Of a DNA stretch of 64,000 nt, positions 15,945-46,928 are shown one piece after another (the first letter of the stretch is position 1; every line of letters begins with the position of its first letter). This DNA is from Paucibacter sp. Y2R2-4 (GTDB lineage: Bacteria > Pseudomonadota > Gammaproteobacteria > Burkholderiales > Burkholderiaceae_C): assembly GCF_025717535.1 (NCBI RefSeq), contig NZ_JAJIRO010000004.1, positions 124,001 through 188,000 of the forward strand. The letters are read 5' to 3'. The notes below the pieces were generated by a model. It had not been told where the DNA came from and did no database searches. It saw nothing but the letters and a program-made list of their open reading frames with translations. A program made the position numbers and the translations under genes.

Positions 15945-16140
15945 TTACTTGGAGCAGGTGCTGTTGGCGGGCAGCAAACGAGTCACGGCGCTCAGATCGC
16001 GCAGGTCCACCGCACCGTCTTTGTTGACATCGGCGCGCGGGTCAAAGCCTGCCTGGCCGGCACGCTTGCCAAACGAAGCCTTCACGATGGCAAGGTCGGC
16101 GCAGTCAATCACGCCGTCGCCGTTCGGGTCAACGGCCAGC
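15945..16140 (-). other. dockerin-encoding segment of the metalloprotease gene
   Basis: This 3' part encodes roughly residues 947-1011. Both calcium loops have Asp or Asn at positions 1, 3, 5 and 12, with Gly at position 6, as in type I dockerins. A Cys occurs in the first loop and another in the final ANSTCSK tail, so a disulfide clasp is possible. Confidence 0.85.
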
Positions 16141-18980
16141 TTGATGGTGAAGTCGGCGTTCGAGACATCGAAGAACACATTGCCCAGCGCTTCCACCTTG
16201 ATGCGTGCCTTGCTGGTGGCCAGCACCGGCAAAGTCACCGCACGGCTGCCATTGTTTGGCGTGCTGGCCGCCAAGACATGGGGGTAGCTCAAGCCACCGT
16301 CCACCGACAAGCTGATCTTCACATCGCTGGTGCTGACTGGCGCCGCATTCGTGTTGGCCACATTCCAGGTCACGGTCTGCGTCGAGCCAGCGTTCAGCGT
16401 GAGCGCTGTGTTGGGCGAGGTCACCAAGAAGGGGCCTGCATTCGGCGCCAAGATCAGGCTGGTGGTGGCGCTGTTCACGCCGCCCTTGCCGTCACGTGCA
16501 GTCAGCTTGAAATTCAGCGAAGCCGGGCTGGCGTTCACACCGGCAAAGCCCACGTAATCCGCGGTCGGCAAAAACTCTGAGAAGCACTCAACTTCCTTGA
16601 CCGTTGGCGTGGCCGAGGCTGCCGGGCAGCTGCCGGTCTCAGCATTGGTGTTATTGGCCAGGATCTGCGCCAGATCGGGAAACACACGGGTCGGGTCGGT
16701 GCCCACGATGTTCTCGCCCGGCGAGTTGTAGAGAATCGTGTTGGCTTCCGTGACCTGAGCCGCCACACCAAACTGGCGGAACAGCGGGCCATTCGTCTTG
16801 GTGTTGCTGATCAGGCTGGTGCCGGTAGCGGCACCACGGTCGTTTTGCTCCCACATATAGCTCAGCGTGTCGCCATCGGCGTCACTGGCCGAGCCGGTCA
16901 GCGCAAAAGGCGTGCGCACCGGGATGGTATAGCTGGCAGGCACGCTGACCAGGGGCGCGTTATTGCCCGTAGCGGTGACGGTGCCGCGACGCTGGGTTGG
17001 GCCGCCAGCGACGATCTCGCCCACATAACCGCTGCAGCCATCGGTGCAGCCACCCAAGACCAGCGGGCTGACATTGACCCCTGCCAAGCTGCCGCCGAAC
17101 GTCAAAGTGAAGCCCGCATCGGTCAGCGAGCCGACCGTGACGGTGCCACCGGCGGGCCAGCCGGCAATGGCTTCGATGGCCGCCTTGATGCCGGCCGTGG
17201 TGAAGTTGCCGCCGCGCACAATGTCGGCCGAGGCATTGCCGTTGTAGCTGAGCTGGAATTTGGCCGTGCCGGCAAATCCGGTCAGGGCCGCCTGCTGTAT
17301 TTCGTTCAGGTTGGTCTCGGCGCCCGAGGTGTAGGCGGTGATTTCATCGAAGCTGCGCTGCGACCAATAGGCATCGCTGTGCGGCTGTGAGTTGTCGGTG
17401 CCGCAAATGCCGGCATAAGCCATGATGGACGAGCCGCTGCCCGGCTCCACCGAGGTGCCGGCGTTGCGGTTGCCGCCGGTACAGCTACCGGTCACGCCAT
17501 TGAAAGTGTGGTTACCGGAGAACTGGTGGCCCAACTCATGCGCCACATAGTCCACCGCAAAGAGGTCGCCCACCGGTGTGGGCACGCCGGTGCAGCCCTG
17601 TGCCTTACTGCTGCCGCCCACCACGCCCAAGCTGGCAATGCCGCCGCCATTCAATCCAAAGCCGATATGGCCCACGTCAAAGTTGCTGGCGCCAATCAAA
17701 AGGCCCACTACCGTGCGGTTGCGGGTCAAGGTACTGCTGGCGCAGCCGGCCGCCTGCGCCGTGGTGTAGCAAGCGGTGGCACCGCAAGGACCATTGGCGC
17801 CGGTCATTTGCGCGGCGGTGTCTAAATTGAGCTTGTCATTGTTGTTGACGAGCACCAAGCGGATCGATGTCTCATCCTCGTAGACATGGGTGATCCGGTT
17901 GACCAAGGTGACCTTGGCCGCCGTCACATTGGCAGAGCCGCCGAAATAGCTTGCATAGGTCGGGTCGGTGACCAAGGCCAGTCGATAGGTGCGCAATTGG
18001 TTGCCGGACGAAGCGGTAGGCGTCTGGCTGTCATCCACCACATGGTAGGCCGCTGTGGCGGTGGTGCGACCATCGGAGGCGCTGACTTCATAAGCCCCCA
18101 GATTGCGCGAAGGGTCTGCACGCAAGGTGGCCACCAAAGTGCCATCACGGTCGGCCTGGGCGGTGACAGTCTGGCGTGCCAAGGTGTCCGTCTCAGGGTT
18201 GCGAATCGTCAGCGTCACTGTGGCGCCGGGCACGAAGCCAAAGCCGCGCACTTCCACCGCATCGCCGGCGTGATAGAAGCCGCGCGTCAAATCCAGATGA
18301 GCCTCGTTCAAAGCACCTTCGATCAGTGGACCACGCGTGTTAGGCAGGTCGCCGCGGTGGTAGCTGACGTAAAGGCTGTCGTCCAGATGGTAGTAGGGGT
18401 CGATATACCAAGCCCCACGCGGCGAGCGCACCGAGGCATGCAGGCCCAGCGGAGTGATGTCCATGCGCAAGCTGGCGCGCGGGTCATCAATGCCTTTGCC
18501 GGCATAGGTCTTGATCTCGGGGTGTTTGGCCGCCAGCTCGGACTCCATCACCGGCGACTCAAGCAAGGCAAAGCGCTGATAGCCGCCATCGGGATGCGGC
18601 AAGGAAATTTCCAAGCTGCTCAGCTGTGCAGCTGCGCTGCGCTCTAGCGGCGCGGCGGCCAAATGAGCAGCGAGACCCAGGCGATCCAAGGTGGCGGCGC
18701 GGTACTTGCTCGGCTGAATCGAAGGGGTCGCGCCCTTGGCGGAGGCCTTGGCCGGCGTGGCCCTCACTTCTTGCCAGAAGGCGCCCGTTGCCGCTGCGAG
18801 GGTCACTTCTTGCGCTACATCTTGTGTGCCCAAAGCGCGGCCAGCCGCTTGCGCTGAAGAGAGCGCCGTGATGGCAGCCAAGGCCATGCCGACGGCCAGA
18901 CCGGTGCGGCTGGGCGCAAAGCACGGGGCACTCGAAGCCTGCTTGAGTGCAGCGCCGCGCGATGAAGATTTCGTTGCCAT
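15945..18980 (-). CDS. secreted reprolysin-like zinc metalloprotease with C-terminal dockerin
   Basis: The 1011-residue protein has an N-terminal signal segment (GLAVGMALAAITALSSAQA), a propeptide-like region, and the zinc motif HELGHQFSGNH at residues 481-491, with a Met further on in SSIMAYAGICG as the metzincin turn. Ig-like segments follow. The last 62 residues are a type I dockerin: two EF-hand loops, DPNGDGVIDCADL and DVNKDGAVDLRDL, spaced by about 25 residues. ATG 18980 follows AAAGGA. Dockerins plug into cohesins, and a cohesin-like PEP-CTERM protein is encoded 930 bases away on the other strand. Protease class is firm; substrate unknown. Confidence 0.9.
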   Translation of the reverse strand: MATKSSSRGAALKQASSAPCFAPSRTGLAVGMALAAITALSSAQAAGRALGTQDVAQEVTLAAATGAFWQEVRATPAKASAKGATPSIQPSKYRAATLDRLGLAAHLAAAPLERSAAAQLSSLEISLPHPDGGYQRFALLESPVMESELAAKHPEIKTYAGKGIDDPRASLRMDITPLGLHASVRSPRGAWYIDPYYHLDDSLYVSYHRGDLPNTRGPLIEGALNEAHLDLTRGFYHAGDAVEVRGFGFVPGATVTLTIRNPETDTLARQTVTAQADRDGTLVATLRADPSRNLGAYEVSASDGRTTATAAYHVVDDSQTPTASSGNQLRTYRLALVTDPTYASYFGGSANVTAAKVTLVNRITHVYEDETSIRLVLVNNNDKLNLDTAAQMTGANGPCGATACYTTAQAAGCASSTLTRNRTVVGLLIGASNFDVGHIGFGLNGGGIASLGVVGGSSKAQGCTGVPTPVGDLFAVDYVAHELGHQFSGNHTFNGVTGSCTGGNRNAGTSVEPGSGSSIMAYAGICGTDNSQPHSDAYWSQRSFDEITAYTSGAETNLNEIQQAALTGFAGTAKFQLSYNGNASADIVRGGNFTTAGIKAAIEAIAGWPAGGTVTVGSLTDAGFTLTFGGSLAGVNVSPLVLGGCTDGCSGYVGEIVAGGPTQRRGTVTATGNNAPLVSVPASYTIPVRTPFALTGSASDADGDTLSYMWEQNDRGAATGTSLISNTKTNGPLFRQFGVAAQVTEANTILYNSPGENIVGTDPTRVFPDLAQILANNTNAETGSCPAASATPTVKEVECFSEFLPTADYVGFAGVNASPASLNFKLTARDGKGGVNSATTSLILAPNAGPFLVTSPNTALTLNAGSTQTVTWNVANTNAAPVSTSDVKISLSVDGGLSYPHVLAASTPNNGSRAVTLPVLATSKARIKVEALGNVFFDVSNADFTIKLAVDPNGDGVIDCADLAIVKASFGKRAGQAGFDPRADVNKDGAVDLRDLSAVTRLLPANSTCSK

Positions 18981-19209
18981 CGGATGTCCTTTATGAGGCC
19001 AAATTGGGGTTTGAGCGAACCGGGTGAGGCGCTTTTGCTCCAGGAAAAACCATCGCCTTTTCGGCTGCAAGATCCCGCCCTGAGTGCAAGTCCCCTCCAG
19101 CAAGCGAATTCGCTCGACAAGGTCTTGCATGAGTCTGATTGCGCCAGCTTGCTCACAAGACTGCGAAGATAGATGACAAGCAATGCCGAGAGATAGAGGG
19201 TCAATCCTG
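18981..19209. promoter_or_regulatory. divergent promoter region of the protease and DUF6438-like genes
   Basis: The 229-bp gap lies between two outward-facing start codons. It has ribosome sites on both sides (AAAGGA for the protease, AGAGGG near 19193 for the rightward gene). I could not identify a clear sigma-70 or sigma-54 promoter by eye. Confidence 0.45.
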
Positions 19210-19710
19210 ATGAGAAAAACACCTGCATGGCAGCTTTATGGGCACTGTTTTGCCGCGCTATGGTTGCTGTTTCACGCCCAGACTTCGCTGGCTCAAAACC
19301 AAGTCGGTGCCGGCGAACTAGCGCCCCAATTCAGCAGCATCACCCTTGAGAAAGACTGCTTCGGCTGCGCTGGCGGCGTGAAACTGGTCTTGCTTCGAGA
19401 GGGCTCCGCCACACGCACGGCTCTCGGTCAGGCTCGGCTGGGCACCATCGATCAGCAGCGCACAAGCCCCTTGAGTTCGACAGACTTTGACGCGCTGCTG
19501 CGTGTCATCTTGGAACAGGATTTTCTGAGTCTGCAAAGCATTTATGAGGAGCCCGACCTGCGCGACGGCGACTGGATCAACATCACACTCGCAGGCCCGG
19601 GCGTCGAGAAGACCGTCTTCCAGCGAGCCCAAGCCGGCCCACCCGCGCTGCAGGCCATTGCAGCCGCCATCGCCCATTTAGAAGCTCAGCTCTTCAAAAC
19701 GGCACACTGA
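19210..19710 (+). CDS. small secreted protein, DUF6438-like
   Basis: The 166-residue product starts with a signal peptide (hydrophobic CFAALWLLFHAQTSLAQ), so it is exported. The mature part contains ITLEKDCFGCAGGVKLVLL, then an acidic middle ending YEEPDLRDGDWINITL and a C-terminal helix. The early CFGC-type motif and the pattern of charged strands resemble DUF6438 domains, whose role is unknown; that match is my reading and is tentative. Start ATG 19210 follows AGAGGG. It lies between the dockerin protease and the cohesin protein, in the same direction as the latter, so it could belong to the same surface system. Confidence 0.65.
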   Translation: MRKTPAWQLYGHCFAALWLLFHAQTSLAQNQVGAGELAPQFSSITLEKDCFGCAGGVKLVLLREGSATRTALGQARLGTIDQQRTSPLSSTDFDALLRVILEQDFLSLQSIYEEPDLRDGDWINITLAGPGVEKTVFQRAQAGPPALQAIAAAIAHLEAQLFKTAH

Positions 19711-19784
19711 AGCTCGCAGCCCTATCGAACACCACGGCTTCTTCTCCGGCCACCCTGGAATACGGGCCGGGATTCCCCTCTTGC

Positions 19785-19800
19785 TGGCAATGGCCTGGCA
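19785..19800 (+). promoter_or_regulatory. sigma-54-like promoter before the cohesin PEP-CTERM gene
   Basis: The sequence TGGCAATGGCCTGGCA has GG and GC separated by ten bases, the spacing of -24/-12 sigma-54 promoters. PEP-CTERM genes in related bacteria are known to be under PrsK/PrsR and RpoN. It would leave a leader of about 95 bases. An inverted repeat GGAAT/ATTCC lies just upstream near 19758-19776. Confidence 0.35.
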
Positions 19801-19825
19801 TTGAAAGATGGTCGCCAATGAAGTC

Positions 19826-19853
19826 GGCTGCAGCGGAAGACCCCGCTGCAGCC
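19826..19853 (+). promoter_or_regulatory. stable hairpin in the leader of the cohesin gene
   Basis: A perfect 11-bp stem (GGCTGCAGCGG at 19826-19836 with 19843-19853) and a 6-base loop lie about 55 bases before the start codon. No T-run follows, so it looks like an mRNA leader element rather than a terminator. The ribosome site AAGGAG lies well downstream and stays free. Confidence 0.5.
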
Positions 19854-19907
19854 CATCAACAAAGGCCGCACAGGCAGATCGCCGTCAAGGCAAAGGAGTG
19901 AGTCACC

Positions 19908-20528
19908 ATGGCCCGTCGTCAATCGGACTTGAAACCGGCAACACGCTGGCAGCAGTATCTTGGCGCAGCTTTGCTGCTGGGCGCTTTGTCCACCCAAGCC
20001 CAGGCGGCAGACCCGGTGCTGTCGATCTCTGCCACGCCCAACCCGGCCGTGCAGGGCTCGACCGTCAGCCTGGATGTGCTGATCAGCGGCATCAGCGACC
20101 TCTACGGCTACCAGTTCTCGCTGTCCTTTGACCCCAAGATCCTGCAAGCCAGCGGCGTCAGCGAAGGCTCATTCCTAAGCAGCGGCGGCAACACCTTTGG
20201 CGGCAACGGCACGATCGACAACAGCCTGGGCTCGATCGAACTGGTTTTCAACTCTTTGATTGGTGCCGTGCCTGGCGTCAGCGGCAACGGCACTTTGGCG
20301 CAGATCAGCTTCAATGTGACCGGTGCCGGAAGCAGCACACTGAACTTCAGTGATGTCATCTTCCTGGACTCGAGTCTGGCGGACCTGCCCGTGCAGATCC
20401 AGAATGGCTCACTGCAAGCGCTGCCTGTGCCTGAGCCTGCGTCTTATCTGATGCTGGCCGCCGGCTTGGCCGGCTTGGGTGGCATGCGCCTTCGCAGCAG
20501 GCGCCTGCTGAGCGAACAAACGGCCTGA
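19908..20528 (+). CDS. cohesin-like domain protein with PEP-CTERM sorting signal
   Basis: The 206-residue protein has a signal peptide (AALLLGALSTQAQA), one beta-sandwich of about 130 residues, and a C-terminal VPEPASYLMLAAGLAGLGG helix followed by RLRSRR. The latter is the PEP-CTERM signal processed by an exosortase at the inner membrane. The sandwich pattern (ATPNPAVQGSTVSLDVLISG, YGYQFSLSFDPKILQASGVSEGSFL, GNGTLAQISFNVTGAGSSTLNF) is that of cohesin domains, which bind dockerins. The nearby protease at 15945-18980 ends in a dockerin. ATG 19908 follows AAGGAG at 19892. Cohesin assignment is by pattern, fairly confident; binding to the neighbour is inferred. Confidence 0.85.
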   Translation: MARRQSDLKPATRWQQYLGAALLLGALSTQAQAADPVLSISATPNPAVQGSTVSLDVLISGISDLYGYQFSLSFDPKILQASGVSEGSFLSSGGNTFGGNGTIDNSLGSIELVFNSLIGAVPGVSGNGTLAQISFNVTGAGSSTLNFSDVIFLDSSLADLPVQIQNGSLQALPVPEPASYLMLAAGLAGLGGMRLRSRRLLSEQTA

Positions 20529-42953: not shown

Positions 42954-44675
42954 ATGTCCTTCCGTCCCAACGTTCTGAGCAGCCTGGTTGCTGCCGCCCT
43001 CGTCGCCATGGCTTCGCAAGCCAGCGCTCAAGTCTTCAACGGCAACTTGGTCCAAGGTGTCAGCAGCTCGCAGTCGTCCTACATCAAGGGCGCCACCGGC
43101 TACGACATCACTTCCATCATCACCGCCGGTGACGCCGTCGGTGGCTACCGCATGTCCGGCCTGCCAGACGGCCTGGGTGCTTTCGACAACGGCAACGGCA
43201 CTTTCACCGTGCTGATGAACCATGAAATCGGCGCGAACGCCGGCATCGCGCGTGCCCACGGCGGCACCGGTGCTTTCGTCTCCAGCTGGGTCATCGACAA
43301 GGCCACGCTGCAAGTCAAGTCGGGCGGAGACCTGATCCAGCGCGTTTACGGCTGGGATGCCGCCACACAAGCCACTGGCGCCCAAGTGACCGGCGCGGCC
43401 AACCTGTCCTTCCAGCGCTTCTGCTCGGCCGATCTGGCCGCAGCTTCGGCCTACACCTACACCGACACCAGCGGCAAGAGCTACGGCACCAGCTCGCGCA
43501 TCTTCCTGAACGGTGAAGAAGTCGGCACCAGCGCCAACAGCCGCGCCATGGCTCACGTGGCCACCGGCAGCGATGCCGGCAGCAGCTTTGTGCTGGGCAA
43601 GTTCAACCCTGCCACCAATGGCAGCGGTTTGGCTCAGTACTCCGCATATGAGAATCTGGCCGCCAACCCCTTCAGCCAGCTGAAGACCGTGGTGGTGGGC
43701 CAGAACGACGGCGGCACCGGCATCGCATCCAACGCCGTGGCTGTGTATGTGGGCACCAAGACCGACAGCGGCAGCGCTGTGGACCGCGCCGGCCTGACCA
43801 ATGGCGTGATGAAGTACGTCAATGTGGCGGGTAACGCTTCCGAAATCGCCGACTCGAACACCCGCGCCACCAACATCGCCAACGGCAGCCGCTTCACCCT
43901 GAGCGCCACTGCATCGACGACTTTCTCGCGCCCTGAAGATGGCGCCTGGGACGTGCGTGCCGGCAAGCAAAACGTGTACTACTTCGTCACCACCGATCGC
44001 CTCGACGGCACCGAGCTGACCGGCGGCACGCAAGTCGGCGCGACGCGCCTGTGGCGCATGACTTTTGACGACATCGCCAACCCTGACGCTGGCGGCAAGC
44101 TGGACATCTTGGTGGACGGCAGCAAGATGGCTGGCGGCGTGGGTAACAGCCGTGCCAATATGTTTGACAACATGACGGTCAACAAGGACGGCACCATCAC
44201 AATGCTGGAAGACACCGGCGGCGCTGACCATAACGGCAAGATCTGGGAATACAACCTGGAAACCGGCGCCGTCAAGATCATCGCCAAGTCCGACACCACC
44301 CGCTTCGGCGATGTGGTGAATGGCGCCTTCACTGGCCCGGCCTCTGGCAAGACCACCCCGAACGGCAGCACCGGCTACCACACCAATGACGAAGAAACCT
44401 CGGGCATCATCGATGTGACCGACATCTTCGACGCCAATGGCACCACCGGCAAGAAGTACCAGCTGTTCGTGACCCAAGACCACGCCAGCGCTGCCGGCCT
44501 GGACGCCGCAGGCATGCTGGTTGGCGGCAACCCCGCCGGCATAGTTGAAGGTGGTCAGCTGCAATTGATGGTCAGCGACGTTGTCGCCGCTGTGCCGGAA
44601 CCAGAAACCTATGCCCTGATGTTGGCTGGTCTGGGCCTGGTGGGCTTCGCAGCTCGCCGCAAAGCTCAGCGTTGA
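42954..44675 (+). CDS. PEP-CTERM protein, PhoX/DUF839-like beta-propeller
   Basis: The 573-residue exported protein has a signal peptide (LVAAALVAMASQASA) and ends with VPEPETYALMLAGLGLVGF and AARRKAQR, a PEP-CTERM sorting signal for an exosortase. The mature part has repeated strand-turn units: NGTFTVLMNHEIG, RIFLNGEEVG, EDGAWDVRAGKQNVYYFVTTD, and DNMTVNKDGTITMLEDTGGADHNG. The style is that of PhoX-like (DUF839) beta-propellers, which include calcium-dependent phosphatases, but I cannot confirm active-site residues. ATG 42954 follows AGGAG. It is the first of a run of three rightward genes with an oxygenase and another PEP-CTERM protein. Confidence 0.75.
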   Translation: MSFRPNVLSSLVAAALVAMASQASAQVFNGNLVQGVSSSQSSYIKGATGYDITSIITAGDAVGGYRMSGLPDGLGAFDNGNGTFTVLMNHEIGANAGIARAHGGTGAFVSSWVIDKATLQVKSGGDLIQRVYGWDAATQATGAQVTGAANLSFQRFCSADLAAASAYTYTDTSGKSYGTSSRIFLNGEEVGTSANSRAMAHVATGSDAGSSFVLGKFNPATNGSGLAQYSAYENLAANPFSQLKTVVVGQNDGGTGIASNAVAVYVGTKTDSGSAVDRAGLTNGVMKYVNVAGNASEIADSNTRATNIANGSRFTLSATASTTFSRPEDGAWDVRAGKQNVYYFVTTDRLDGTELTGGTQVGATRLWRMTFDDIANPDAGGKLDILVDGSKMAGGVGNSRANMFDNMTVNKDGTITMLEDTGGADHNGKIWEYNLETGAVKIIAKSDTTRFGDVVNGAFTGPASGKTTPNGSTGYHTNDEETSGIIDVTDIFDANGTTGKKYQLFVTQDHASAAGLDAAGMLVGGNPAGIVEGGQLQLMVSDVVAAVPEPETYALMLAGLGLVGFAARRKAQR

Positions 44676-45608: not shown

Positions 45609-46928
45609 ATGCAAACCAAGATCACTTTGCTGGCCGCCTTGCTGGCCGCCGGACTGAGCGCCGGCGGCAGCGCTGCCGCGGCGTCAAACAGCTACGACAC
45701 GACCATCCTGGTCGCCAATGACGCCAAGTACAAGCCCACCGTCATGGTCGACCCCGACCTGATCAACCCCTGGGGCATTGCCCTGCGCCCGCCCGGCATC
45801 GGCGGCCACATCTGGACCAGCAATGCCGGCAGCGGCACCACCACCACATATATCGGCGACGTCGGCGGCAAGCCTCTGTATCAAGACGGCCTGAAGGTCA
45901 TCCCCATCAGCCAGGCCAAGGGCGTGGAAGCCTATACCCCGCAAGTGACCGGCCAGGTCTATAACGCCGCCAGCGACATCGCCGGCCAGCCCACCGAGTT
46001 CTACGTCTCGGGCGCTGCCACCAACTGGAACACCGGCGCATCGGCCGGCACCATCTCAGGCTCGGCCAAGTTCGTCTTCGTCACTTTGGACGGCACCATC
46101 AACGCCTGGCGCGCTGGCACCAACCCCGGCATGAACGAAGCTGTGGTGGTGAAGGACTTCTCGGGCAACTGGGCCGGTGCCAATGGTTACCAATACACGC
46201 CCAACTTCACCGGCGTGGCCATGACGACGGCGGGCTTCAAGCTCGACGCCGGCGGCAACAAGGTGGCGGACAACCGGCTCTACGCCACCGACTTCGCCAA
46301 CAACCGCATCATGACTTTCGACAACCAGTGGAACGACATCAGCGCCAGCGTCCACTTCGAGCGGCCGAATGATCTGCAAAACGACTTCATGCCCTTCAAC
46401 ATCCAAGACATCGGAGGTCGCCTGTACGTGGCTTACGCCGCCAGCGAGTACGACCCGCTGATGCCCAGCGAGCCGGTGCGTGCGCCCGCCCATGGCCGCG
46501 TGATCGCCTATGACCGTGATGGTCACATCGTGCAGGACTTCAAGGACCAACTCGATATGAACGCGCCTTGGGGCCTGGCCATGGCACCCACCAGCTTCGG
46601 CGCCTATGGCGGCAAACTCTTGGTCGCCAATTTTGGTGACGGCAGCATCGCCGCGCTGGACCCGGAAACCGGTGCCACCCTGGGCAAGCTGAAGGACGCC
46701 GAAGGCAAGACCATCTTCATCGATGGCATCTGGGGTCTCACTTTCGGCAACGGCGTGAGCCTCGGCGATGCCAACTCGCTCTACTTCACCGCCGGCCCAA
46801 ATCTGGAAGAAGACGGCATTCTGGGCAAGCTGACCGTCAGCGCCGTGCCAGAGCCCAGCAGCTACGCCTTGCTGCTCGGCGGCCTGGGCCTGTTGGGCGC
46901 CGTGGCCCGTCGCCGCCAAGCAAACTGA
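45609..46928 (+). CDS. TIGR03118 family protein with PEP-CTERM signal
   Basis: The 439-residue exported protein has a signal peptide (LLAALLAAGLSAGGSAAA) and ends with VPEPSSYALLLGGLGLLGA plus ARRRQAN, a PEP-CTERM signal. The mature part opens YDTTILVANDAKYKPTVMVD, then DLINPWGIALRPPG, and contains NRLYATDFANNRIMTFDN and APWGLAMAPTSFGAYGGKLLVANFGDG. These mark the TIGR03118 family, predicted to form a beta-propeller; no activity is established. ATG 45609 follows GAGG at 45596. A clear terminator follows at 46976. Confidence 0.88.
   Translation: MQTKITLLAALLAAGLSAGGSAAAASNSYDTTILVANDAKYKPTVMVDPDLINPWGIALRPPGIGGHIWTSNAGSGTTTTYIGDVGGKPLYQDGLKVIPISQAKGVEAYTPQVTGQVYNAASDIAGQPTEFYVSGAATNWNTGASAGTISGSAKFVFVTLDGTINAWRAGTNPGMNEAVVVKDFSGNWAGANGYQYTPNFTGVAMTTAGFKLDAGGNKVADNRLYATDFANNRIMTFDNQWNDISASVHFERPNDLQNDFMPFNIQDIGGRLYVAYAASEYDPLMPSEPVRAPAHGRVIAYDRDGHIVQDFKDQLDMNAPWGLAMAPTSFGAYGGKLLVANFGDGSIAALDPETGATLGKLKDAEGKTIFIDGIWGLTFGNGVSLGDANSLYFTAGPNLEEDGILGKLTVSAVPEPSSYALLLGGLGLLGAVARRRQAN

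Follow-up and report, generated by a model that had tools for sequence, protein, structure and literature searches.

Does a single cohesin, sorted to the cell envelope, serve as the docking site of a neighbouring secreted protease? The question is raised by a locus of Paucibacter sp. Y2R2-4 (NCBI RefSeq assembly GCF_025717535.1, 5.13 Mb on 9 contigs), which lies in a stretch of 64,000 nucleotides of contig NZ_JAJIRO010000004.1; the window, below, means this whole stretch. Here a gene for a metalloprotease with a C-terminal dockerin stands near a gene for a cohesin protein with a PEP-CTERM tail, and a preliminary description of the window had proposed that the two form a surface docking system. 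We consider it probable that they are a two-gene plug-and-socket display unit, in which an exosortase-sorted cohesin holds the dockerin-tailed protease at the surface. The recurrence of the pair in relatives and the largely matched subtypes of its two domains strongly support the proposed pairing, and joint structure models of related pairs reach high predicted template modelling (pTM) scores.

The cohesin and dockerin genes of the window

The cohesin gene (19908-20528, forward strand) encodes a 206-residue protein with a signal-peptide-like start, a single Cohesin domain (20052-20411; residues 49-168) and a PEP-CTERM sorting tail (20424-20504; residues 173-199) made of a PEP motif, a hydrophobic stretch and an Arg-rich end. 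Both Pfam matches are above the curated cut-offs, at 50.6 bits against 24.1 for Cohesin and 25.0 bits against 20.7 for PEP-CTERM. The nearest sequences in the PDB are scaffoldin cohesins, mostly of type II (ScaA/ScaB and SdbA of Acetivibrio and Clostridium). Together with the model of an orthologue (L117, see below), which folds as a cohesin, the Pfam match bears out the cohesin-like beta-sandwich with a membrane-sorting tail that had been read from this gene. The genome encodes two exosortases above cut-off (245 and 227 bits), 84 PEP-CTERM tails above cut-off (87 matches, 3 of them below it) and the type II secretion protein GspD, so that machinery for export and sorting is present. With its tail above cut-off in a genome that has exosortases, the cohesin protein is predicted to undergo exosortase-dependent sorting. 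Two more PEP-CTERM tails lie in the window (44589-44663 and 46842-46916), and both are among the six best-scoring in the genome.

The protease open reading frame (ORF; 15945-19130, reverse strand) is matched by Reprolysin_2 (105.5 bits; cut-off 27) and, at residues 1001-1053, by Dockerin_1 (35.7 bits; cut-off 22.9). The ATG at 18980 is a likelier start than 19130, because it gives a signal-peptide-like N terminus (judged by eye) and has AAAGGA upstream. The gene would then span 15945-18980 (reverse strand) and start 927 bases from the start of the cohesin gene, so the spacing of 930 bp given in the preliminary description is right. Both the profile and a zinc-site motif read from the sequence, HELGHQFSGNH (17508-17540, reverse strand), place the product in the M12B (reprolysin-like) family; a second motif reads SGSSIMAY. 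The glycine of the classic HExxHxxGxxH is a serine in the window protease and an alanine or serine in the orthologues listed. The predicted secreted protein also has Ig/PKD-like regions, whose Pfam matches are weak and under their cut-offs, and the NCBIfam search of the protease returned only a weak partial match, to a rhombosortase-dependent M36 model (17.9 bits; cut-off 1700).

The protease ends in a dockerin domain (15948-16133, reverse strand) whose two calcium loops are intact, as had been described: loop 1, DPNGDGVIDCAD, at 16095-16130 and loop 2, DVNKDGAVDLRD, at 15996-16031. Two calcium loops and a Dockerin_1 match above cut-off make it a type I dockerin. Its repeats do not show near two-fold symmetry at the level of sequence, since positions 10-11 of the loop read C-A in the first repeat but L-R in the second. 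Symmetric repeats with a dual binding mode are typical of type I dockerins, though not universal among them. Dual and single binding modes of dockerins are both discussed in the accessible text of PMC12484212.

With all of these domains above the Pfam cut-offs, the juxtaposition of a dockerin-tailed metalloprotease and a cohesin-bearing PEP-CTERM protein is firmly established. These are the only Pfam cohesin and the only Pfam dockerin above the curated cut-offs in the whole genome, and they lie 3.9 kb apart, on separate neighbouring genes and outside a cellulosome. By simple arithmetic that leaves recurrence in relatives out of account, two random points in 5.13 Mb would fall this close with a probability of about 0.0016. 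We rejected chance adjacency because the linkage recurs in loci of the family and of a genome collection.

Recurrence of the pair in relatives

A scan of the genome collection with a cohesin alignment (A1) gave 49 loci, of which 12 (such as L065 and L090) are shared with the family set described below. The closest loci belong to a Burkholderiales metagenome-assembled genome (MAG), Paucibacter and Roseateles, in agreement with the earlier assignment of the window to a betaproteobacterium. Short cohesins account for 45 of the 49 loci, and 43 of these 45 adjoin a dockerin gene; one of the two unpaired cohesins (L128) begins at its contig end. Cohesin and dockerin share one ORF in the Poribacteria loci L133 and L135. 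Pairs were seen in Paucibacter, Roseateles, Rubrivivax, Pelomonas, Massilia, Duganella, Rugamonas, Pseudoduganella, Janthinobacterium, Pseudorhodoferax, Aquincola and Schlegelella, as well as in a Methylomirabilota MAG and two acidobacterial MAGs (L130, L134).

The cohesin and the dockerin stay while gene order, cargo and surroundings change. The 43 paired loci are divergent in 14 cases, have the dockerin gene first in 24 and the cohesin gene first in 5; for this count L124, with its dockerin at the far end of the downstream gene, was re-assigned by hand and a second L133 entry was dropped. Orthologues of the window protease (62-86% identity) are found in 25 of the 49 loci, some of them divergent (Roseateles/Rubrivivax) and others tandem (Oxalobacteraceae), and all 25 keep HExxHxxxxxH. 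The other neighbours tested from the window (queC, folE, DUF2845 and proA) appear only in the closest locus, L089.

The M12B protease is the cargo in 25 of the 43 paired loci. Elsewhere Pfam identified the cargo as GH10 (L114, L116, L120), a GDSL lipase/acylhydrolase (L122, L126, L129, L131), a penicillin amidase (L124), a protein with VWA7-like domains (L127), one with a partial M20 match (L119) and one with a PD40 propeller (L132); the cargo of seven loci (L111, L112, L113, L118, L125, L130, L134) has no catalytic domain recognised by Pfam. C25 cysteine proteases occur in the same arrangement at L074 and L075, which belong to loci beyond the 49. Its presence next to such different enzymes makes the pair look like a general means of keeping secreted enzymes at the surface. 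Relatives of the protease in two g76 genomes (L204-L207) lack a dockerin and stop just short of the dockerin boundary; the family scans found no dockerin and no short cohesin in these two genomes, and G076 has a secretin-type cohesin.

We also searched 399 genomes of the window's family with Pfam (with E limits of 0.01 for cohesin and 0.001 for dockerin). A cohesin was found in 50 genomes, a dockerin in 68 and both in 29, against 8.5 expected (hypergeometric P = 8.5e-13, a value that is only indicative, since related genomes are not independent). Cohesin and dockerin lay within 20 kb of each other for 25 of the 64 cohesins and 26 of the 88 dockerins, and every such pair was less than 4 kb apart. 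The 64 cohesins comprised 33 short ones, 20 of secretin type, 9 in ORFs of more than 2000 residues, 1 in an ORF with dockerins (G051) and 1 contig-end fragment (G163). Surroundings were examined for 56 of them, eight in giant ORFs being omitted; from the 11 giant, mixed or fragmentary cohesins, G056, G051 and G163 (L170, L173, L143) were retrieved and none was counted.

A refined search of the ORFs with dockerin, cohesin-only and secretin hidden Markov models (HMMs) made from the loci placed a dockerin domain within 4 kb of 31 of the 33 short cohesins, and in the examined stretch of none of the 20 secretin-fused ones. The dockerin of L149 is 1.6 kb away, and L148 (E 1e-6) and L156 (E 3e-4) have weak ones. 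The PEP motif is present in the tail of 30 of the 33 short cohesins, in a variant form in L156 and L171, and absent from the L149 ORF.

In the opposite direction, we sampled 20 of the family dockerins that have no Pfam cohesin nearby. Nine adjoin a clear PEP-CTERM cohesin (L177, L179, L182, L183, L185, L186, L190, L195, L196) and four a weak cohesin (L184, L187, L189, L191). The remaining seven were scored as having no cohesin neighbour (L178, L180, L181, L188, L192-L194). Among them is L180, where the full-length cohesin HMM matched inside the dockerin's own ORF together with a sub-threshold PEP-CTERM; at L181 matches of the cohesin HMM were confined to PEP-CTERM tails.

A scan of 368 genomes at the class level found a cohesin in 22, a dockerin in 42 and both in 7 (counted by hand), and in all 7 the two lie within 4 kb or in one ORF.

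Two peculiarities of these sets concern protein architecture. Cohesin-like proteins of about 320-330 residues with a C-terminal extension are encoded about 1.5 kb from the dockerin gene at L184, L187, L189 and L149, and the PEP-CTERM match of L184 is internal (residues 193-213). In ORFs of more than 7000 residues (G318:C2, G069:C176, G376:C4), a cohesin lies about 90 bases from a dockerin.

A conserved cysteine pair and matched subtypes

The dockerin alignment (A3) has 40 rows; L095, L105, L112 and L134 were omitted from it and from alignment A2. The same 39 of the 40 dockerins have a cysteine at position 10 of loop 1 and another near the C terminus; in the window dockerin their codons are at 16101-16103 and 15954-15956 (reverse strand). 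The one exception, L113, has neither and carries its dockerin at the N terminus. A dockerin near the N terminus of the cargo instead of the C terminus was seen at L113 and also at L079. We propose that the two cysteines probably form a disulfide clasp that closes the dockerin. Position 10 of the loop is one of the usual recognition positions in dockerins. With a disulfide at this position, only the face of repeat 2 would be free to bind, in a single binding mode, in keeping with the five rows (L122, L124, L126, L129, L131) that lost loop 1 and retained both cysteines and loop 2.

We sorted the dockerins of 77 distinct pairs into three groups by a crude letter rule, which splits some near-identical members (L184, L189). 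The groups comprise 48 dockerins with the cysteine pair, 18 without it and 11 with a C-terminal cysteine cluster. In 69 of 77 cases, a cohesin and its nearest neighbour among the other cohesins have partners that belong to one group. Dockerin distances followed cohesin distances across the 77 pairs (Mantel r = 0.81, P = 1e-4, 10,000 permutations) and across the 51 pairs left when the M12B pairs were excluded (r = 0.79), with shared ancestry inflating both values. To lessen the effect of species history, we compared true with swapped partners within 12 hand-listed genomes that have at least two pairs, and the true partner fitted better in 14 of 14 comparisons. Judged by these sequence distances, we conclude that dockerin and cohesin subtypes are largely matched and change together.

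Joint structure models of related pairs

At four loci (L115, L117, L122, L131) the dockerin gene shares its reading frame with the cohesin gene downstream. When the stops between the two genes are read as serine, an artificial dockerin-linker-cohesin chain results, and we folded two such chains with AlphaFold2. The L117 read-through (280 residues) reached a mean predicted local distance difference test (pLDDT) score of 86.1 and a whole-chain pTM, which is not an interface score, of 0.76. The L131 read-through (231 residues), whose dockerin has lost loop 1, reached 84.9 and 0.80. The linkers are of low confidence, with block means of 46-63 in L117 and about 40 in L131. By our own estimate, undocked domains would give a pTM near 0.5 for L117, against the 0.76 obtained, so the relative placement of its dockerin and cohesin appears confident in the model. 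Across the cohesin domain of L117 the block pLDDT is 95-98, and the Foldseek matches listed for the model are cohesins, the best being 2xdh of Archaeoglobus fulgidus.

Weighing the docking model

We propose that the cohesin protein is exported by its own signal peptide and that an exosortase handles its PEP-CTERM tail, which would leave a socket with a single cohesin, placed either at the cell envelope or in the extracellular matrix. The metalloprotease would be exported separately, with its C-terminal dockerin as the plug. Calcium-dependent binding of the dockerin to the cohesin would then retain the protease at the surface, where it would otherwise be lost by diffusion. One enzyme would be held per anchor, an arrangement that would resemble the anchoring step of a cellulosome without being one. 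We infer all the elements of this scheme: cohesin-dockerin binding and its calcium dependence, the disulfide, exosortase processing, the final location and the proteolytic activity.

Several observations weigh against this model. The folded chains are read-throughs of Massilia and Pseudoduganella relatives and not the window proteins, and their pTM values describe the whole chain and not the interface, for two true pairs only. The check by complex prediction that had been suggested is positive in part: two orthologous pairs give a high pTM, but as single-chain read-throughs of relatives only. Alignment A1 was built from cohesins already known to be paired, and the dockerin and cohesin HMMs were derived from pairs already found. 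Shared ancestry contributes to the Mantel correlations, and 3 of the 14 contrasts between true and swapped partners differ by 0.01 only. In the family, a PEP-CTERM cohesin (L145, G056) has no dockerin in 18 kb and another cohesin (L144) only a weak one (E 0.003). In the collection, L123 has no dockerin in 2.7 kb upstream and 1.2 kb downstream on its 4.5-kb contig, and the remote L136 and L137 have none. At the class level, a Pfam dockerin is missing from 15 of the 22 genomes that have a cohesin, so the association is not a universal rule. The seven lone dockerins among the 20 sampled also count here: co-inheritance, which had been put forward as a check, holds well from the side of the short cohesin, which is seldom alone in either the family or the collection, but less well from that of the dockerin.

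The best of the alternatives, which we regard as unlikely, is that the cohesin is an inhibitor of the protease or a chaperone for its secretion, so that the enzyme would be held in the periplasm or inactive until release and not displayed. The same adjacency and export signals on both proteins would be expected, and the gene between the two is a further point in its favour. This gene (likely 19210-19710, forward strand) encodes a small, predicted secreted protein with a CxxC motif. It had been described as DUF6438-like; the gene is present and resembles that family, but it scores 17.8 bits, under the curated Pfam cut-off of 30, as does a relative at L066 (25.9 bits). A homologue stands between the pair in 14 of the 14 divergent loci of the collection scan, the CxxC is kept in the window and all 14, and the gene was undetected in the tandem loci of that scan. 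One guess is that the CxxC protein may help to oxidise the cysteine-bearing dockerin. Against an inhibitor or chaperone, enzymes with no relation to one another (GH10, GDSL lipase, penicillin amidase) are found among the cargo, as are VWA7-like and propeller proteins; so varied a cargo makes a specific inhibitor unlikely. The anchoring tail is, moreover, kept in most of the cohesins.

It is also improbable, and distinctly so, that co-expression or co-transfer alone accounts for the linkage of the two genes, the dockerin acting as a self-folding calcium module or binding another target such as a matrix glycan, and the cohesin binding another dockerin or none. The seven lone dockerins would fit such a separation, as would the cohesin-secretin fusions, which use a cohesin without a neighbouring dockerin. 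Yet the genome offers neither partner another dockerin or cohesin above cut-off, true partners beat swapped ones in every within-genome comparison, the linkage survives changes of gene order, cargo and neighbourhood, and the joint models of relatives have high pTM. A remnant or minor part of a cellulosome-like multi-enzyme scaffold deserves hardly any credence: the domain families are those of cellulosomes, but the cohesin protein has no carbohydrate-binding module in Pfam, and we rejected a cellulosome, which needs several cohesins and several dockerin enzymes, because counts of one and one at the cut-offs leave room neither for a multi-cohesin scaffoldin nor for a second dockerin enzyme.

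Relation to known systems

Cohesin-dockerin pairs outside cellulosomes are already known, according to the accessible parts of PMC9012536 and PMC9705933. The closest is AfuDoc75/AfuCoh76 of Archaeoglobus fulgidus, for which these texts describe strong, specific binding. It too pairs a single dockerin with a single cohesin, their ORF numbers being consecutive, and its cohesin is 2xdh, the best Foldseek match of the L117 model. Unlike the window pair it is archaeal, and a PEP-CTERM tail, a series of cargo proteins and a cysteine pair are not mentioned for it in the accessible text.

The clostridial type II anchoring cohesins (ScaA, ScaB, SdbA), the nearest PDB sequences to the window cohesin, likewise bind a dockerin from the side of the surface. 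They hold multi-enzyme scaffoldins and are attached via SLH domains or sortases (PMC9012536, accessible text), whereas the window system has a single enzyme and an exosortase-type tail. The window cohesin resembles other PEP-CTERM/exosortase proteins of Gram-negative bacteria in its tail above cut-off and the exosortases of its genome, and differs in that it seems to serve solely as a receptor for another protein. Cohesin-like modules of Clostridium perfringens glycoside hydrolases (2jh2, 2w1n, 2vo8), which are among the Foldseek matches listed, also have the cohesin fold outside cellulosomes; judged by the titles of these entries, the enzyme carries the cohesin in those proteins, whereas in the window the anchor does.

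The family also has many secretins that end in a C-terminal cohesin (L150-L155, L157-L169). The three that we checked have a Pfam Cohesin above cut-off, like the window protein; in contrast to it, they have secretin domains and no PEP-CTERM, and in 20 of 20 loci no dockerin in the examined stretch.

Our literature search, with most subscription papers outside its coverage, found no paper that combines "dockerin" and "PEP-CTERM". The only paper found with both "cohesin" and "exosortase", on methanotrophic archaea (PMC5244752), calls the function outside cellulosomes not known in its accessible text.

One anchor and one enzyme per locus, with the cargo exchanged, make for a clear proposed function. 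We lean, with less assurance than for the window pair itself, towards a general and hitherto undescribed platform for enzyme display in Gram-negative bacteria. Exosortases would sort sockets of one cohesin each, and every socket would be encoded next to the cargo whose dockerin tail it takes up, whether a protease, a GH10 glycosidase, a GDSL lipase, a penicillin-type amidase or another protein. There would be three or more classes of matched specificity, and in the largest a disulfide-clasped dockerin would tolerate loss of loop 1. If true, this would account for the retention of hydrolases at the surface of some PEP-CTERM bacteria and would tie cohesin anchoring to exosortase sorting. Protein display in Gram-negative bacteria would also gain a family of binding pairs that are matched by nature and possibly orthogonal.

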